This document shows positions 22,522 through 57,688 of a stretch of DNA of 64,000 bases, one piece after another. Origin of the DNA: Rhizobacter koreensis (GTDB lineage Bacteria; Pseudomonadota; Gammaproteobacteria; Burkholderiales; Burkholderiaceae_C); the NCBI RefSeq assembly GCF_013366375.1, contig NZ_JABWMJ010000001.1:186001-250000 (forward strand). Reading direction: 5' to 3'. The notes under the pieces were generated by a model. That model had not been told where the DNA came from. It saw only the letters and a program-made list of their open reading frames with translations, and did no database searches. Both the position numbers and the translations under genes were made by a program. Position 1 is the stretch's first letter, and each line of letters opens with the position of its first letter.

Positions 22522-24429
22522 TTGGACCCGACCCGTTCCAGCACCCCCGACGCCGAGCACCCGAACCAGTTCTCCCTGCTCGGCCAGCGCCGCTTCGCGC
22601 CGTTCTTCTGGACCCAGTTCCTCGGCGCCGGCAACGACAACCTGTTCAAGTTCGCACTGACGGTGCTGGTGACCTATCACCTGCAATCCGACCTGCTGCC
22701 GCCGACGCTCGCCGGCCTCGTGATCGGCGCGCTCTTTATCCTGCCCTTCCTGCTGTTCTCGGCGACCAGCGGGCAGCTCGCCGACAAGTTCGACAAGGCG
22801 CGGCTGATCCGCCTCGTGAAGTCGCTGGAGATCGCGATCATGGCGTTCGCCGGCTGGGGCTTCGTCGCCGCCAACGTGCCCGTGCTGCTGGCCTGCGTGT
22901 TCCTGATGGGCGTGCACTCGACGCTGTTCGGCCCGGTGAAGTTCGCCTACCTGCCGCAGCACCTCAGCGAGCGCGAGCTGACCGGCGGCAACGGCATGGT
23001 CGAGATGGGCACCTTCGTCGCGATCCTGCTCGGCAGCGTCGCCGGGGGCCTGTTGATCGCGATTCCCGGCACCGGCGCCCGCTACGCGGCGCTGGCCTGC
23101 GTCGCGCTCGCCGTGGTCGGGCGCCTCACCGCGCACGCGATCCCCGCGTCGCCCCCCGCGGACCCGCGGCTGCGCATCAACTGGAACCCGGTGAGCGAGA
23201 CCTGGGCCAACCTCAAGCTCGCGCACGCCAACGTGGTGGTGTTCCGCTCGCTGCTCGGCATCTCGTGGATGTGGTTCTTCGGCGCGGTGTTCCTGTCGCA
23301 GTTTCCGGCGTTCGCCAAGGAGGTGCTGCACGGCGACGAGCGCGTCGCCTCGCTGCTGCTGGTGGTGTTCTCGGTCGGCATCGGCGTCGGCTCGCTGCTT
23401 TGCGAGGTGCTGTCGCGGCGCCACGTGGAGATCGGCCTGGTGCCGCTCGGCGCGATCGGCATGAGCGTGTTCTCGATCGACCTGTACTTCGCCGCGCGCG
23501 GGCTCGCGCCGGCGGCGAGCCTCGGCGTCGCCGACTTCGTCGCCCGGCCGGCGCACTGGCGCGTGATGGTCGACCTGGCGCTGCTCTCGCTGTTTGCCGG
23601 CCTCTACAGCGTGCCGATGTATGCGCTGATCCAGATGCGCTCGGCGCCGAGCCACCGGGCGCGCGTGATCGCGGCCAACAACATCCTCAACGCGCTGTTC
23701 CTCATCCTCAGCTCGCTCGGCGTCGGCGTGCTGCTCGGCTTTGGTCTGACCATTCCTCAGGTCTTCCTGGTGACGGGCCTGCTCAACGCGGTGGTCGCCG
23801 GCTACATCTTCTTGCTGGTGCCCGAGTACCTGCTGCGCTTCGTCGCGTTCGTCGCGACTCGCGTGGTGTATCGGTTCCGGGTCCGCGGCGACGCGAACAT
23901 TCCGGTCAGCGGGCCGGCGATCCTGGTCTGCAACCACGTCAGCTTCGCCGACCCTGTGCTCCTGATGGCGGCGAGCCCGCGGCCGATCCGCTTCATCATG
24001 GACCACCGCATCTTCCGGGCGCCGCTGCTCGGCTGGTTCTTCCGCCTCGCCAAGGCGATCCCGATCGCGCCGCAGCGCGAGGACCCGGCGATCTATGCGC
24101 AGGCCTTCGAACGGGCGCGTGCCGCGCTCGCCGACGGCGAGCTCGTCTGCATCTTTCCGGAAGGCGCGATCACCCGCGACGGCGCGCTCGGCGAGTTCAA
24201 GGGCGGCGTGATGAAGCTGCTGGAGACGCACCCGGTGCCGGTGATTCCGCTCGCGCTGCAGAACCTCTGGGGCTCGTTCTTCTCGCGCGCGGGCGGCAAG
24301 GCGATGAGCCAGCCGCTGCGCCGCGGCATGTTCAGCCGGATCGGCCTCGTCGCGGGCGCACCGCTCGCGCCGCACGAGACGTCGCCCGGCGCGCTGCGCG
24401 AGCGGGTGGCCACCCTGCTGGCGTCCTGA
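22522..24429 (+). CDS. MFS transporter fused to PlsC-type acyltransferase
   Basis: 635 residues in two domains. Residues about 15-440 form an LplT-like MFS transporter (QFLGAGNDNLFKFALTV, LFGPVKFAYLPQHL). Residues about 445-630 form a 1-acylglycerol-3-phosphate acyltransferase domain with the catalytic NHVSFAD (HX4D) and FPEGAITRDG motifs. The acyl-ACP synthetase domain found in Aas-type fusions is missing. Known LplT and Aas act together to import and re-acylate lysophospholipids, so a single-chain flip-and-acylate protein is a reasonable inference. It lies 42 bases after the DUF2145 gene on the same strand. Confidence 0.9.
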   Translation: MDPTRSSTPDAEHPNQFSLLGQRRFAPFFWTQFLGAGNDNLFKFALTVLVTYHLQSDLLPPTLAGLVIGALFILPFLLFSATSGQLADKFDKARLIRLVKSLEIAIMAFAGWGFVAANVPVLLACVFLMGVHSTLFGPVKFAYLPQHLSERELTGGNGMVEMGTFVAILLGSVAGGLLIAIPGTGARYAALACVALAVVGRLTAHAIPASPPADPRLRINWNPVSETWANLKLAHANVVVFRSLLGISWMWFFGAVFLSQFPAFAKEVLHGDERVASLLLVVFSVGIGVGSLLCEVLSRRHVEIGLVPLGAIGMSVFSIDLYFAARGLAPAASLGVADFVARPAHWRVMVDLALLSLFAGLYSVPMYALIQMRSAPSHRARVIAANNILNALFLILSSLGVGVLLGFGLTIPQVFLVTGLLNAVVAGYIFLLVPEYLLRFVAFVATRVVYRFRVRGDANIPVSGPAILVCNHVSFADPVLLMAASPRPIRFIMDHRIFRAPLLGWFFRLAKAIPIAPQREDPAIYAQAFERARAALADGELVCIFPEGAITRDGALGEFKGGVMKLLETHPVPVIPLALQNLWGSFFSRAGGKAMSQPLRRGMFSRIGLVAGAPLAPHETSPGALRERVATLLAS

Positions 24430-53770: not shown

Positions 53771-55480
53771 TCAGGCGCGCGACGGCGCTGCGCGCGGCGC
53801 CGCGACGGCGCCCAGCACGTGCTCGACCATCGCGTTGGCGAGCTCGGTCTCGCCGACGAACACCCGCGCCGTGCCCTCGGCCTCGAGCAGGCGCGCCTCG
53901 TCGACGTTGTGGCTGCGCACCGCGATGCGGATCGCCGGGTTCAGCGTGCGCGCGATCTCGGCCATCCGACGCACCTCGATCGTCTCGGGCGTCGCGATCA
54001 CCAGCATGTGGGCGTGCGCGATGTGCGCCTGGATCAGCACCGCCGGGTCGGTGGCGTTGCCGAACACCGCGGGGGTGCCGCCGGCACGCAGCTGCTCGAC
54101 CGCCTCGCGGTTCTCGTCGGCGACGACGAACGGCACGCCGGCCTGCCTGAGCGCGCTCGCGATCGACCGACCGACGCGGCCATAGCCGACCAGCACGACC
54201 TGGCGCGAAAGGAACTTCGCCTCGGTCGACATCGGCAGCTCGGCGAGCGGATCGCTCGCGAGCGTCCGCAGGCCGGCCCACCGCGTGACGCCGGCGAGCA
54301 GGCGGCCGAGCGGCGCGGAGAGCTCGAAGAAGAGGGGGTTCAGCGCGATCGAGATCAGCGCGCCGGCGACGATCAGGCTCTGGCCCTCCACCGGCAGCAG
54401 GCCGAGCGCGACGCCGAGCGCGGCAAGGATGAACGAGAACTCGCCGATCTGGCCGAGCCCGGCCGACACCGTGAGCGCGGTGCGCAGCGGATAGCCGAAC
54501 GAGAGCACCAGCGCCGCCGCGGCGACCGACTTGCCAAACACGATGATCAGCACGACTTCGAGCACGCGCAGCGGGTGCTCGACGAGCACCGTGGGATCGA
54601 ACAGCATGCCGACGGACACGAAGAACAGCACCGCGAACGCGTCGCGCAGCGGCAGCGTCTCCTCGGCGGCGCGATGGCTGAACTGCGATTCGCGCAGCAC
54701 CATGCCCGCGAAGAACGCGCCGAGCGCGAACGACACGCCGAACAGCAGCGACGAGCCGTAGGCGATCGACACCGCGGCGACGATCACCGCCAGCGTGAAG
54801 AGCTCGCGCGAGCCGGTCTTGGTGACCTGCCACAGCACCCATGGGAAAAGCCGGCGGCCGACCACCAGCATCAGGGCGACGAACGCGCCGACCTCGAGCA
54901 CCGTGCGGCCGAGCGTCCACCAGAGGCTCTGCGTCGTCGGGGCGACCTGCCCACCGAGCGCGCCGGCGAGCGGCGGCAGGACGACGAGCACCACCACCAT
55001 CGCGAGGTCCTCGACGACGAGCCAGCCGATCGCGATGCGGCCGTCGCCCGAATCGAGCCGGCCGCGGCTTTCGAGCGCCTTGAGCAGCACCACGGTGCTC
55101 GCGACCGAGAGCGCAAGTCCGAACACCAGCCCGGCGCCGAACGACCAGCCCCACAGCATCGCGGCCGCGCAGCCGAGCGCGGTCGCCACCGCCATCTGCA
55201 CCACCGCGCCCGGGAGCGCGACCTTGCGCACCGCCAGCAGGTCGGCCAGCGAGAAGTGCAGGCCGACGCCGAACATCAGCAGCATCACGCCGATCTCGGC
55301 GAGCTGCGCGGCGATCTCGGCGTCGGCGACGAAGCCCGGCGTCGCCGGGCCGATCACGATGCCGGCGACCAGGTAGCCGATGAGCGCCGGCAGCTTGCAG
55401 CGCGCGGCGATGAAGCCGAACACGAGCGCGAGCCCGAAGCCGGCGGCGAGGGTGCTGATGAGGCTGACCGCGTGGGGCAA
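53771..55480 (-). CDS. Monovalent cation:proton antiporter-2 (YbaL/KefB-like)
   Basis: 569 residues: an N-terminal Na+/H+ exchanger domain with about 12 helices (residues 1-385; GLHFSLADLLAVRK, GQIGEFSFILAALGVALG) and a C-terminal TrkA-N (RCK) Rossmann domain starting QVVLVGYGRVGRSIASAL. Similar E. coli proteins are KefB, KefC and YbaL; potassium efflux is likely, and control by NAD(H) or another ligand is expected. Convergent with tldD, divergent from the DAHP synthase leader. Confidence 0.92.
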   Translation of the reverse strand: MPHAVSLISTLAAGFGLALVFGFIAARCKLPALIGYLVAGIVIGPATPGFVADAEIAAQLAEIGVMLLMFGVGLHFSLADLLAVRKVALPGAVVQMAVATALGCAAAMLWGWSFGAGLVFGLALSVASTVVLLKALESRGRLDSGDGRIAIGWLVVEDLAMVVVLVVLPPLAGALGGQVAPTTQSLWWTLGRTVLEVGAFVALMLVVGRRLFPWVLWQVTKTGSRELFTLAVIVAAVSIAYGSSLLFGVSFALGAFFAGMVLRESQFSHRAAEETLPLRDAFAVLFFVSVGMLFDPTVLVEHPLRVLEVVLIIVFGKSVAAAALVLSFGYPLRTALTVSAGLGQIGEFSFILAALGVALGLLPVEGQSLIVAGALISIALNPLFFELSAPLGRLLAGVTRWAGLRTLASDPLAELPMSTEAKFLSRQVVLVGYGRVGRSIASALRQAGVPFVVADENREAVEQLRAGGTPAVFGNATDPAVLIQAHIAHAHMLVIATPETIEVRRMAEIARTLNPAIRIAVRSHNVDEARLLEAEGTARVFVGETELANAMVEHVLGAVAAPRAAPSRA

Positions 55481-55624
55481 GGTTCAGCCCCTCCGCACGT
55501 GCGTTCCGGCGCGGCGCGCGCCTCGCGCCCGCGGCGCAGCGAGTCTCGACATCTTCAGCAGGTCCTCGGGGGGTAGGGGCCGGCACCGAATCGGAGCCGT
55601 CGACGACCGTGCTACATTCCGCCG

Positions 55625-55699
55625 ATGCTCACGCGCGCCTGGCCTTTTGCCTATTTTGCGTTCTCGTACCGCCCGGCGGTCGGAGAGGCCCAGCGCTAG
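55625..55699 (+). CDS. Aromatic-amino-acid leader peptide of DAHP synthase
   Basis: A 24-codon frame whose residues 6-15 read WPFAYFAFSY, with Trp at 6, Phe at 8, 11 and 13, and Tyr at 10 and 15. Six aromatic residues in ten is far above chance. The stop TAG (55697-55699) lies 21 bases before a terminator stem, the classic leader-peptide position. No clear Shine-Dalgarno is seen, and a TACATT -10-like box at 55613-55618 would make the transcript begin almost at the ATG, so translation initiation is the weak point. Confidence 0.7.
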   Translation: MLTRAWPFAYFAFSYRPAVGEAQR

Positions 55700-55733
55700 C
55701 AACTGCAAGCACGATCTCCGAAAACCGCCGGGC
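55671..55733 (+). promoter_or_regulatory. Antiterminator helix of the DAHP synthase attenuator
   Basis: Bases 55671-55686 (GCCCGGCGGTCGGAGA) pair with 55715-55733 (TCTCCG, a bulged AAA, ACCGCCGGGC): 10 plus 6 perfect base pairs. The 3' half is also the 5' arm of the terminator, so the two structures exclude each other. The 5' half lies directly after the Phe/Tyr codons. A ribosome stalled at Tyr10 or Phe11 would leave it free, while a ribosome at the stop codon would cover it. Confidence 0.75.
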
Positions 55734-55754
55734 ACCCCCCGGCGGTTTTCGTTT
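55721..55754 (+). terminator. Attenuator terminator upstream of DAHP synthase
   Basis: AAAACCGCCGGG pairs with CCCGGCGGTTTT (12 bp) around a CACCC loop, followed by CGTTT. It lies between the leader peptide and the structural gene and competes with the antiterminator helix. Confidence 0.82.
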
Positions 55755-55798
55755 ATGCGCTCGAGAAAAAGCGCCAACGAACCATGGGAAGCCGGATC

Positions 55799-56914
55799 AT
55801 GACCTCCAGCAGCGCAGCGAGCCGCGAGTGGATCGCGAACAGCGAACGCACCAGCCAGACCGACGACCAGCGCATCGTCGACGTCAAGCCGCTGCCCCCG
55901 CCGGAGCACCTGATCCGCTTCTTCCCGATCGCCGGCACGCCGGTCGAGCAGCAGATCGAGGCGACCCGTGGGGCGATCCGCCGCATCATGCAGAAGCAGG
56001 ACGACCGCCTGCTCGTGATCATGGGGCCATGCTCGATCCACGATCCGGTCGCCGCGGTCGACTACGCCAAGCGCCTCAAGGCCGAGCGCGACCGGTACGC
56101 CGACACGCTCGAGATCGTGATGCGAGTCTACTTCGAGAAGCCGCGCACCACGGTCGGCTGGAAGGGCCTCATCAACGATCCGTACCTCGACGAGACGTAT
56201 CGCATCGACGAGGGCCTGCGTATCGGCCGCCAGCTGCTGCTCGAGATCAACCGGCTCGGCATGCCCGCCGGCAGCGAGTTCCTCGACGTCATCTCGCCGC
56301 AGTACCTCGGCGACCTGATCGCCTGGGGTGCGATCGGCGCGCGCACCACCGAGAGCCAGGTGCACCGCGAGCTCGCCTCGGGCCTCTCGGCGCCGATCGG
56401 CTTCAAGAACGGCACCGACGGCAACATCAAGATCGCGATCGACGCGATCCAGGCGGCGGCGCGGCCGCACCACTTCCTGTCGGTGCACAAGAACGGGCAG
56501 GTCGCGATCGTCGAAACGCGCGGCAACACGGACTGCCACGTCATCCTGCGCGGCGGCAAGGCGCCGAACTACGACGAGACGAGCGTCGCCGCCGCCTGCC
56601 GCGAGCTCGACGCCGCACAGCTCGACTGCGCGCTGATGGTCGACTGCAGCCATGCCAACAGCAGCAAGCAGTACGCGCGCCAGGTCGAGGTCGCACGCGA
56701 CGTCGCGGTGCAGCTGCGCGCCGGTCAACGCAGCGTGTTCGGCGTGATGGTCGAGAGCCACCTGGTCGCCGGCGCGCAGAAGTTCAGCGCCGGCAAGGAC
56801 GACCCGGCGCAGCTCGTCTACGGCCAGAGCATCACCGACGCGTGCATCGGCTGGGACGACTCGGTCACCATGCTGCGCGAGCTGAGCGATGCGGTGCGCG
56901 CGCGGCGCGGCTGA
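55799..56914 (+). CDS. aroG: 3-deoxy-D-arabino-heptulosonate 7-phosphate synthase, class I
   Basis: 371 residues; condenses PEP and erythrose 4-phosphate, the first step of the shikimate pathway. Class I signatures: VIMGPCSIHDP, GFKNGTDGNIKIA, and metal-binding VDCSHANSSKQY. ATG at 55799 has GGGAAG upstream; ATG at 55784 is an alternative adding five residues. Which aromatic amino acid inhibits it allosterically cannot be told, so the aroG/aroF/aroH choice is open. Expression is predicted to be controlled by the upstream Trp/Phe/Tyr attenuator. Confidence 0.94.
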   Translation: MTSSSAASREWIANSERTSQTDDQRIVDVKPLPPPEHLIRFFPIAGTPVEQQIEATRGAIRRIMQKQDDRLLVIMGPCSIHDPVAAVDYAKRLKAERDRYADTLEIVMRVYFEKPRTTVGWKGLINDPYLDETYRIDEGLRIGRQLLLEINRLGMPAGSEFLDVISPQYLGDLIAWGAIGARTTESQVHRELASGLSAPIGFKNGTDGNIKIAIDAIQAAARPHHFLSVHKNGQVAIVETRGNTDCHVILRGGKAPNYDETSVAAACRELDAAQLDCALMVDCSHANSSKQYARQVEVARDVAVQLRAGQRSVFGVMVESHLVAGAQKFSAGKDDPAQLVYGQSITDACIGWDDSVTMLRELSDAVRARRG

Positions 56915-56992
56915 AAGCCGAGCATCCCATGCGCTGGTGCGCTAAGGCGTAGCCTGACGCATCGCGCCAGCGCGCTCGCAAGGAGAACCGCC

Positions 56993-57688
56993 ATGAAGGC
57001 AACGCCGCTCCCGGTCGAGGATGACCGCGGCCGCGCCGACGCCGCGCCCGACGGAACGCGGCGGCGCGTGCTGCACGCGGCGCTCGGCGCCGCCGTGCTC
57101 GGCGTGCCCGCGTTCGCGACGGCGCGCGGTGGGCTGCCGCCGATCACCGAAGGTCCGTTCTACCCGCCGGCGTCGTGGCGCGCGCGCACCCTCGACGTCG
57201 ATGCCGACCTCACCACGGTGCGCAGCGGAAACGGCAGCGCCCAACGTGCGCTCGGCGAACATCTCGACCTGCTCGGCGTCGTCAGCGACGCCGACGGTCG
57301 CACGATCGACGGCGCGACGGTCGAGATCTGGCAGTGCGACGTCTTCGCGAGCTACCGCCACCCGCACGGCGCCGGCGCTCGCGTCGATGCCGGCTTTCAG
57401 GGCTTCGGCGAGAGTCGCAGCGACGCCCGCGGCGCGGTGCGCTTTCGCACGATCCGGCCGGTGGCGTATCCCGGCCGCACGCCGCACATCCACGTCAAGG
57501 TGCGCCACCCGTCGTTCGGCGAGCTGACCTCGCAGCTGTTCGTCGCCGGCGAGCCGGGCAACGCGCGCGACGGCCTCTGGCGCAGCCTGCCGCCCGAGGC
57601 GCAGGCACGCGTCGCCATGGCGCTGCGCGCGGCGCCAGCCGGCTCGGGCGTGCGCTGGGTCGTCGAGCAGGCGCTGGTCGTCGGCTGA
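56993..57688 (+). CDS. Exported intradiol ring-cleavage dioxygenase family protein
   Basis: 231 residues. TRRRVLHAALGAAVLG near the N-terminus is a twin-arginine-like signal. The protocatechuate/catechol dioxygenase beta-sandwich follows, with EGPFYPP, WQCDVFASYRHP and PHIHVKV carrying likely Fe(III) ligands (two Tyr, two His). The substrate is unknown, and export is unusual for aromatic-ring catabolism. An AAGGAG Shine-Dalgarno precedes the ATG. It lies 78 bases after aroG, but a functional link is not implied. Confidence 0.86.
   Translation: MKATPLPVEDDRGRADAAPDGTRRRVLHAALGAAVLGVPAFATARGGLPPITEGPFYPPASWRARTLDVDADLTTVRSGNGSAQRALGEHLDLLGVVSDADGRTIDGATVEIWQCDVFASYRHPHGAGARVDAGFQGFGESRSDARGAVRFRTIRPVAYPGRTPHIHVKVRHPSFGELTSQLFVAGEPGNARDGLWRSLPPEAQARVAMALRAAPAGSGVRWVVEQALVVG

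Follow-up and report, generated by a model that had tools for sequence, protein, structure and literature searches.

In the E. coli trpL and pheL attenuators, the leader RNA follows a "1:2, 2:3, 3:4" hairpin layout. The aroG leader described here resembles them (pheL preceding pheA) in that a short leader carries codons for the products of the pathway and a stalled ribosome would free an arm that blocks an intrinsic terminator, possibly within the same "1:2, 2:3, 3:4" layout. It is unlike them in that its target is a DAHP synthase and not a terminal branch, in that three aromatic amino acids are represented in the leader, and in that it has no Shine-Dalgarno sequence and no match to an Rfam leader.

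Attenuation in front of a DAHP synthase gene has been described in C. glutamicum, where, in the published account, the aroR leader (Phe-Tyr-Phe) precedes aroF and Phe limitation raises transcription (PMC4046766); aroR-aroF attenuation is also treated in a review citing Neshat et al. 2014 (PMC11802643). We liken this system to the aroG leader by function, as far as the published descriptions go, and it differs in belonging to an Actinobacterium and in having Phe-Tyr-Phe as the named control residues, with Tyr reported to be without effect. The original prediction, which gave trp and pheA as the well-known cases and named none for a betaproteobacterial DAHP synthase, had overlooked this prior art. 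In the open-access literature we found no aroG attenuator described for Burkholderiales or Xanthomonas: the accessible text of PMC2965389 and PMC7011215 holds nothing on aroG, and that of PMC5343134, on control by TyrR/TrpR, mentions attenuation solely for trp and pheA.

Leaders that begin with their own start codon are likewise on record. In the accessible text of PMC7298713, the 5′ end of S. meliloti rnTrpL is the ATG of the trpL leader ORF, and the predicted aroG leader RNA would begin in the same way; the S. meliloti system differs in its host, an alphaproteobacterium, in responding to Trp only, and in its target, trpE(G). In S. lividans, leuL, trpL, ilvL, and other attenuator leaders are reported to lack a 5′ UTR, one of them located before leuA (PMC8079986); they differ in coming from an Actinobacterium and in their −10 element, TAnnnT, for which the accessible text mentions no TGC extension, and there is no DAHP synthase leader among the eight that it lists. 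The mechanism class is already known from trp/phe attenuation, from aroR-aroF, and from the leaderless leaders of rhizobia and Streptomyces. What is new, judged by the open-access literature, is the leader family itself, its spread among Burkholderiales, the three-amino-acid leader, its restriction to one aroG type, and a front end held in common with leuA.

The window, by which we mean the whole stretch of 64,000 nucleotides analyzed (contig C1, positions 186001 to 250000), carries the following elements at the aroG locus.

55609 to 55618, plus strand: extended −10 element GTGCTACATT (TGn plus the hexamer TACATT), with spacing conserved in the family.
55625 to 55699, plus strand: leader ORF MLTRAWPFAYFAFSYRPAVGEAQR, with its ATG at the predicted transcription start (leaderless) and the stop codon TAG.
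55640 to 55669, plus strand: putative control codons W P F A Y F A F S Y (codons 6 to 15), from sequence reading and ribosome-position folding.
55668 to 55680, plus strand: small hairpin ACCGC-CCG-GCGGT, a candidate "1:2" hairpin competing with the antiterminator.
55671 to 55686, plus strand: arm A, the antiterminator 5′ arm GCCCGGCGGTCGGAGA, overlapping a conserved GAGAG box; from sequence, alignment, and compensatory changes.
55715 to 55733, plus strand: arm B, the antiterminator 3′ arm, also part of the terminator; from sequence and alignment.
55719 to 55751, plus strand: terminator hairpin B:C, whose 12 bp become 14 with the flanking CG pairs, and a TTT after it; from sequence, fold, and compensatory changes.
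55784 to 56914, plus strand: aroG, DAHP synthase (PF00793, 6.2e-92; TIGR00034, 3.5e-159).

We hold with high confidence that these elements form a ribosome-mediated transcription attenuator of aroG, probably with a leaderless front end, for which we infer start site, leader translation, stalling, and termination as follows. RNA polymerase would begin transcription on the A of the leader ATG or beside it, and a ribosome would initiate on the leaderless AUG. When Phe-, Tyr-, or Trp-tRNA is short, the ribosome would stall among the clustered aromatic codons, at a point 3 to 10 codons upstream of arm A, leaving arm A free to pair with the emerging arm B, and transcription would proceed into aroG. 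When the aromatic tRNAs are charged, the ribosome would reach the stop codon and mask arm A, B would pair with C, and transcription would end near 55750. The core of the original prediction, leader-peptide attenuation of aroG, finds its support in the conservation of leader and helices and in the placement of the codons; by the features tested, the element very probably belongs to the trp/phe type of ribosome-mediated transcription attenuators and is conserved and functional.

Pfam and NCBIfam profile matches identify the aroG product as a class I DAHP synthase, whose closest named relatives are those of Rhizobacter MAGs (85% and 82% identity). Its first ATG lies at 55784, and a second possible start at 55799 follows GGAAG. 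In the source assembly (5.6 Mb, 98.3% complete, 7.2% contamination), a single match to the AroG protein was obtained and no type II DAHP synthase was found; the genome's second PF00793 match was ruled out as another DAHP synthase, being a KDO-8-phosphate synthase. With no DAHP synthase other than aroG found in the genome, a single switch would govern entry to the entire pathway. The locus gave no match against a plasmid collection.

Read off the window sequence, the leader ORF consists of 24 codons plus TAG, and its codons 6 to 15 include one Trp, three Phe, and two Tyr codons, exactly the frame with six aromatic codons in ten that had been proposed. No matching family for the leader peptide exists in NCBIfam or Pfam, and neither the window nor the loci of nine relatives contain an Rfam leader family (Phe_leader, Trp_leader, or others) at the gathering score. 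The sole Rfam match in the window is Bcj11 (Burkholderia RNA 11) at 23207 to 23328, with 118.9 bits.

For the comparison among relatives, the AroG protein was searched in 120 genomes from 119 genera of the window's family, eight of which were left out (no match, fragments, contig edge, or a paralogue alone); one locus with a short upstream region (L191) was removed from the 112 primary aroG genes, leaving 111, and another (L195) from the 18 paralogues, leaving 17. In 14 of 130 upstream stretches, an in-frame stop falls among the first 10 codons of the loose match to the protein, and these cases were taken as fuzzy match starts. With a leader defined as an ORF having at least five F/Y/W in 12 codons, an aromatic-rich ORF precedes the primary aroG in 109 of the 111 genomes, compared with 12 of 555 sequences made by dinucleotide shuffling of these regions, and the two remaining genomes, with a score of 4, are also leader-like. 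Phe, Tyr, and Trp are all present in 102/111 leaders, and the Trp codon, found in 104/111, usually lies inside the cluster (FAYFWFS). In the window's genus (two genomes), the usual Trp position is Ala and the Trp codon stands six codons further upstream, so that the strength of a Trp response here is uncertain; the proposal that one leader could integrate the whole pathway is to that extent qualified.

When 100 leaders were aligned by their last Trp codon, five codons of the cluster had T in the first position, T or A in the second, and T or C in the third in 97 to 99 of the 100, from which we conclude that the cluster is conserved as Phe/Tyr codons. The expectation that third positions vary more than the first two fails at some codons, where the second position switches between Phe and Tyr. 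Across 30 genomes, TTT accounts for 60% of the Phe codons in the leaders and 7% of those in aroG, an excess consistent with slow or sensitive decoding.

Both helices of the original prediction, the 16-bp antiterminator and the mutually exclusive 12-bp terminator, are present as described. The antiterminator comprises a 10-bp part, in which GCCCGGCGGT (55671 to 55680) pairs with ACCGCCGGGC (55724 to 55733), and a 6-bp part, in which CGGAGA (55681 to 55686) pairs with TCTCCG (55715 to 55720), the two parts being split by a 3-nt AAA bulge and totaling 16 bp. The terminator stem pairs 55721 to 55732 with 55738 to 55749 (12 bp, or 14 bp including flanking CG pairs), with the loop CACCC and the tail TTTTCGTTT, and the two structures exclude each other through their common arm, 55724 to 55732. 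The whole-leader fold has a z score of −2.92, with 2 of 200 shuffles equally stable. Four U of the window's tail pair with A, leaving CGTTTATG unpaired, and this interrupted U-tract is the weaker one when compared with many relatives, whose T runs are longer. Over 55000 to 57000, a simple scanner flagged neither a promoter nor a terminator. It accepts a promoter only if the two hexamers are present and leaves U within the stem uncounted, and these two requirements, given the four paired U, explain its negative result. Among the family genomes, a terminator with a U-tract was called in 107/111 (4 without a call), of which 12 calls were judged wrong and left out of the alignment, covariation, and folding, so that 95 were kept.

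Arm A can also pair with the bases just 5′ of it, forming a small hairpin with a stem of at least four pairs in 92/119 leaders, in some of which CGTC/GACG replaces CCGC/GCGG. This hairpin could serve as the "1:2" hairpin, and if it does, the upstream Trp codon of the window's genus might trigger poorly. The GAGAG box that follows arm A (GAGAGG at 55683 to 55688 of the window) is about 90% conserved among relatives, and its pairing partner before the terminator looks variable.

Helix covariation was evaluated in an aligned set of 95 leaders. In the terminator helix, 90.8% of the cells are paired and double changes occur in four pairs (13 cells versus a shuffled mean of 3.3), while the antiterminator core has 88.5% paired cells and double changes in three pairs (10 cells versus a shuffled mean of 1.1), these shuffles ignoring the relatedness of the sequences. 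For the antiterminator, two of five measures are unexceptional, with 18/500 shuffles as high in double-change pairs and 131/500 in pair types. Helices slid out of register gave 1 to 12 double-change cells with 35 to 64% pairing for the terminator (12 cells at −2) and 0 to 12 cells with 16 to 53% pairing for the antiterminator (10 to 12 at +2/+3); the slid versions with the most double changes were paired at 30 to 53%, compared with 90.8% and 88.5% unslid. The core CCGCC/GGCGG is nearly invariant in the aligned leaders, and the covariation therefore rests on few positions. Since arm B pairs with both A and C, threefold changes are the most telling: at position 6 the arms A/B/C read C/G/C in 77/119 leaders and T/A/T in 16/119, and at position 4 the A:B pair G-C becomes A-U in seven leaders with B:C becoming a U-G pair, one of these seven A/T/G rows (L148) having a doubtful arm. 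In this joint count, the A and C arms were chosen to maximize pairing, which biases it towards pairing, and in the MAFFT alignment (A1) arm A is one column off in some rows. On these few positions, the compensatory changes support both helices and, together with the 109/111 leaders, the conservation among relatives by which the original prediction was to be judged. In the leader tail, the RNA boxes CCGGCGG and GAGAG are kept while the peptide frame differs (RPAVGEA, PGGGEA, PGGREA), indicating that the tail is kept as RNA.

The relation between codon position and helix choice was modeled in 119 sequences by placing an assumed ribosome footprint on each codon in turn and folding the RNA, as far as arm B, at equilibrium, a model that largely restates the spacing between the codons and arm A. 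In the model, arm B is paired with a mean probability of 0.95 to 0.96 for stalls 3 to 8 codons before arm A and 0.93 over the aromatic codons as stall sites; with the ribosome on or past arm A the probability is 0.15 to 0.35 (0.24 when the A site holds the stop codon). Aromatic codons make up 76 to 93% of codons at distances 3 to 6 from arm A, 43% at 7, and 65 to 88% at 8 to 10, and 27% at distance 2 and 3% at distances 0 to 1. For stalls 11 to 15 codons upstream, modeled pairing of arm B declines from 0.92 to 0.77 and just 9 to 14% of the codons are aromatic; because the effective range extends upstream beyond the cluster, the folding model explains the near edge of the cluster and not the far one. 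In the window's leader, arm B is paired with a modeled probability of 1.00 for stalls at W6, F8, Y10, F11, and F13. With the last Tyr codon (55667 to 55669) in the A site, the ribosome covers arm A and the modeled probability is 0.00. Arm A does start two bases after this codon, at 55671, as originally noted, but the stall geometry attributed to that position would not hold, and the last Tyr is predicted not to favor antitermination. Effective control would fall to codons at least three upstream of arm A's 7-bp core. The place of the last Tyr is taken in relatives by Tyr in 2/100, His in 31, and Val in 25, so that the assumption of His in most relatives was wrong.

The absence of an evident Shine-Dalgarno sequence before the leader ATG, regarded initially as the weak point of the prediction, is genuine and conserved across the family (0/111, and 1/107 with a wider 4-mer set), counts which rule out that such a sequence was merely overlooked, and its likely explanation is leaderless initiation. 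In the window, the extended −10 TGCTACATT ends 6 nt before the leader ATG, with no good −35 at 17 bp from it (ATCGGA there). In an earlier count of this spacing, the start codon could be the one with a −10, ATG being preferred; a neutral rule was then used, which assigns no ATG in 4/111 genomes (some in the wrong frame) and leaves 107. Under this rule, blind to the promoter, TGnTAnnnT ends 6 to 10 nt before the leader ATG in 95/107 genomes, with gaps of 7 nt in 60, 8 nt in 21, 6 nt in 9, 9 nt in 4, and 10 nt in 1 and none in 12, compared with 0/557 for the same motif 4 to 10 nt upstream of other ATGs in these regions. The family consensus is GTGCTACATT, mostly with CC immediately before the ATG. 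If leaderless genes are taken to have an AUG, a −10 located 6 to 8 nt upstream, and no Shine-Dalgarno sequence, the gap lies in that range in 90/107. At sigma-70 promoters, transcription starts about 7 to 8 bases past the −10 hexamer, which would put the start here on the first base of the leader ATG or beside it. The aroG leader is probably leaderless in the window's family, judging from these spacings; the leaderless form would be a feature of this family and possibly also of Xanthomonas-type leaders, as seen by eye.

An unlikely alternative, which keeps attenuation, is an ordinary leadered mRNA that starts further upstream and has a 5′ UTR without a Shine-Dalgarno sequence. Such an arrangement would agree with Burkholderia, Caballeronia, Massilia, and similar loci and with Oxalobacteraceae-type loci, in which a −10 of the TATAA or TATAG type is seen by eye about 40 nt before the leader ATG, and with the leaders outside the family, which also lack a Shine-Dalgarno sequence (0/24). 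Moreover, Shine-Dalgarno-like 4-mers precede the possible starts of aroG itself in just 35/111 genes, which makes their absence before the leader weak evidence. The leadered start is nevertheless disfavored in the family by the contrast between 95/107 leader ATGs and 0/557 other ATGs in −10 placement and by the CC before most ATGs.

The conserved RNA boxes of the tail, maintained whatever the peptide frame, would also be expected if the terminator were simply constitutive or the leader RNA fixed, with no control by amino acids and with the aromatic peptide either coincidental or acting as a peptide. We consider this highly improbable in view of the aromatic content (109/111 leaders versus 12/555 shuffles and 0/17 paralogues), the codon pattern, the use of rare codons, and the placement of codons relative to arm A. 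A further possibility, a little less probable than the leadered mRNA, is that the leader peptide, or the leader RNA once terminated, has an additional role in trans alongside attenuation, as reported for peTrpL and rnTrpL of S. meliloti. The terminated RNA would be a leaderless mRNA of about 130 nt, like rnTrpL as described in the accessible text of PMC7298713, whereas the tail of the leader peptide is not conserved as a peptide.

The promoter-start arrangement is not confined to aroG. A search of 100 family genomes for the exact pattern GTGCTACATT-N5-8-ATG gave 69 occurrences, compared with 4 for a reversed-pattern control. Sorted by hand from coordinates and ORFs, the 69 comprise 42 aroG leaders, 24 sites before leuA or a LeuA-like gene (18 in which a leader ORF such as MNKISLALLLLPHGRKQ was read, the other 6 assigned solely from coordinates), and 3 that are neither; at L301, L316, L320, and L358 the LeuA-like gene was recognized by eye and not by family search. 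Among 45 leuA loci picked by gene, 32 have a Leu-rich leader by the corresponding rule, 26 of these 32 with a −10 at 6 to 7 nt, and in several of the loci failing the rule the scanned stretch probably missed the operon head. Leader Leu codons are CTA in 28/56 cases versus 3/437 in the leuA genes (12 loci). The source genome's own leuA leader, MTRLRLSAILLLLPSIRVR at G000:C34:208176, has TGCTATATT 6 nt before its ATG and Leu codons other than CTA, followed by a GC-rich inverted repeat and TTTTG, with leuA 142 nt downstream; this locus is L355 (G000:C34:208136-208320). Other Leu-leader loci are L295, L296, L300, L301, L307, L308, L311, L312, L316, L319, and L320. On this sequence evidence, the Leu-rich leaders of leuA and LeuA-like genes, with the same −10/ATG spacing, are a probable sibling leaderless attenuator. 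We somewhat favor the view that a fused promoter-start cassette (TGCTACATT, 6 to 8 nt, AUG first) is a common front end of the family's amino acid attenuators, at least those of aroG and leuA, providing leaderless, Shine-Dalgarno-free leader genes in a Proteobacterium. Such a cassette is perhaps kept because leaderless initiation loads the first ribosome at once, coupled to the polymerase, or because it is responsive to the state of the free 70S ribosomes. A front end common to aroG and leuA raises the question of why attenuators of unrelated bacteria start their RNA at the AUG.

Elsewhere in the source genome, the regions upstream of ilvB and pheA gave nothing above the script thresholds. Upstream of trpE (L375, contig C1, minus strand) there is a short ORF, MSISHRIASRSADRGAWPWRA, which contains WPW and begins eight nt after TGCTACACT; no U-tract terminator was seen after it, and, lying about 240 nt upstream of trpE, it is a possible Trp leader.

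Restriction of the switch to one aroG type emerges from the paralogues, a second type (57 to 64% identity): an aromatic-rich leader precedes 0 of the 17 with readable upstream regions, and a switch common to both types is ruled out for these sampled cases. One aroG type thus carries the switch and the other, in 17 sampled cases, does not. The switch is a likely main control over how carbon enters aromatic amino acid synthesis in a large bacterial group, and the more than 100 natural variants allow codon choice, arm sequence, and spacing to be compared.

In addition, 80 named loci were inspected, one of which was too short; of the other 79, 65 score at least 5 (one, L051, being doubtful) and 14 do not. 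The positives include Variovorax, Polaromonas, Acidovorax, Hydrogenophaga, Burkholderia, Caballeronia, Paraburkholderia, Massilia, Janthinobacterium, Oxalobacter, and Xanthomonas bonasiae, and among the 14 below the leader score are three Polynucleobacter, two Cupriavidus, Thauera, Azoarcus, and Enterovibrio. In a wider draw of one stretch from each of 80 genomes, with a leader defined by at least six F/Y/W plus a terminator motif, both were found in 12/40 regions of the same order (in 11/36 families other than the window's) and in 2/40 regions of other orders, both from one family with Xanthomonas-like leaders; absences in this draw weigh little because, for each genome, only the top aroG match was examined. 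Other Burkholderiales families have aromatic leaders that differ in sequence (L216, L230, L244, and others).
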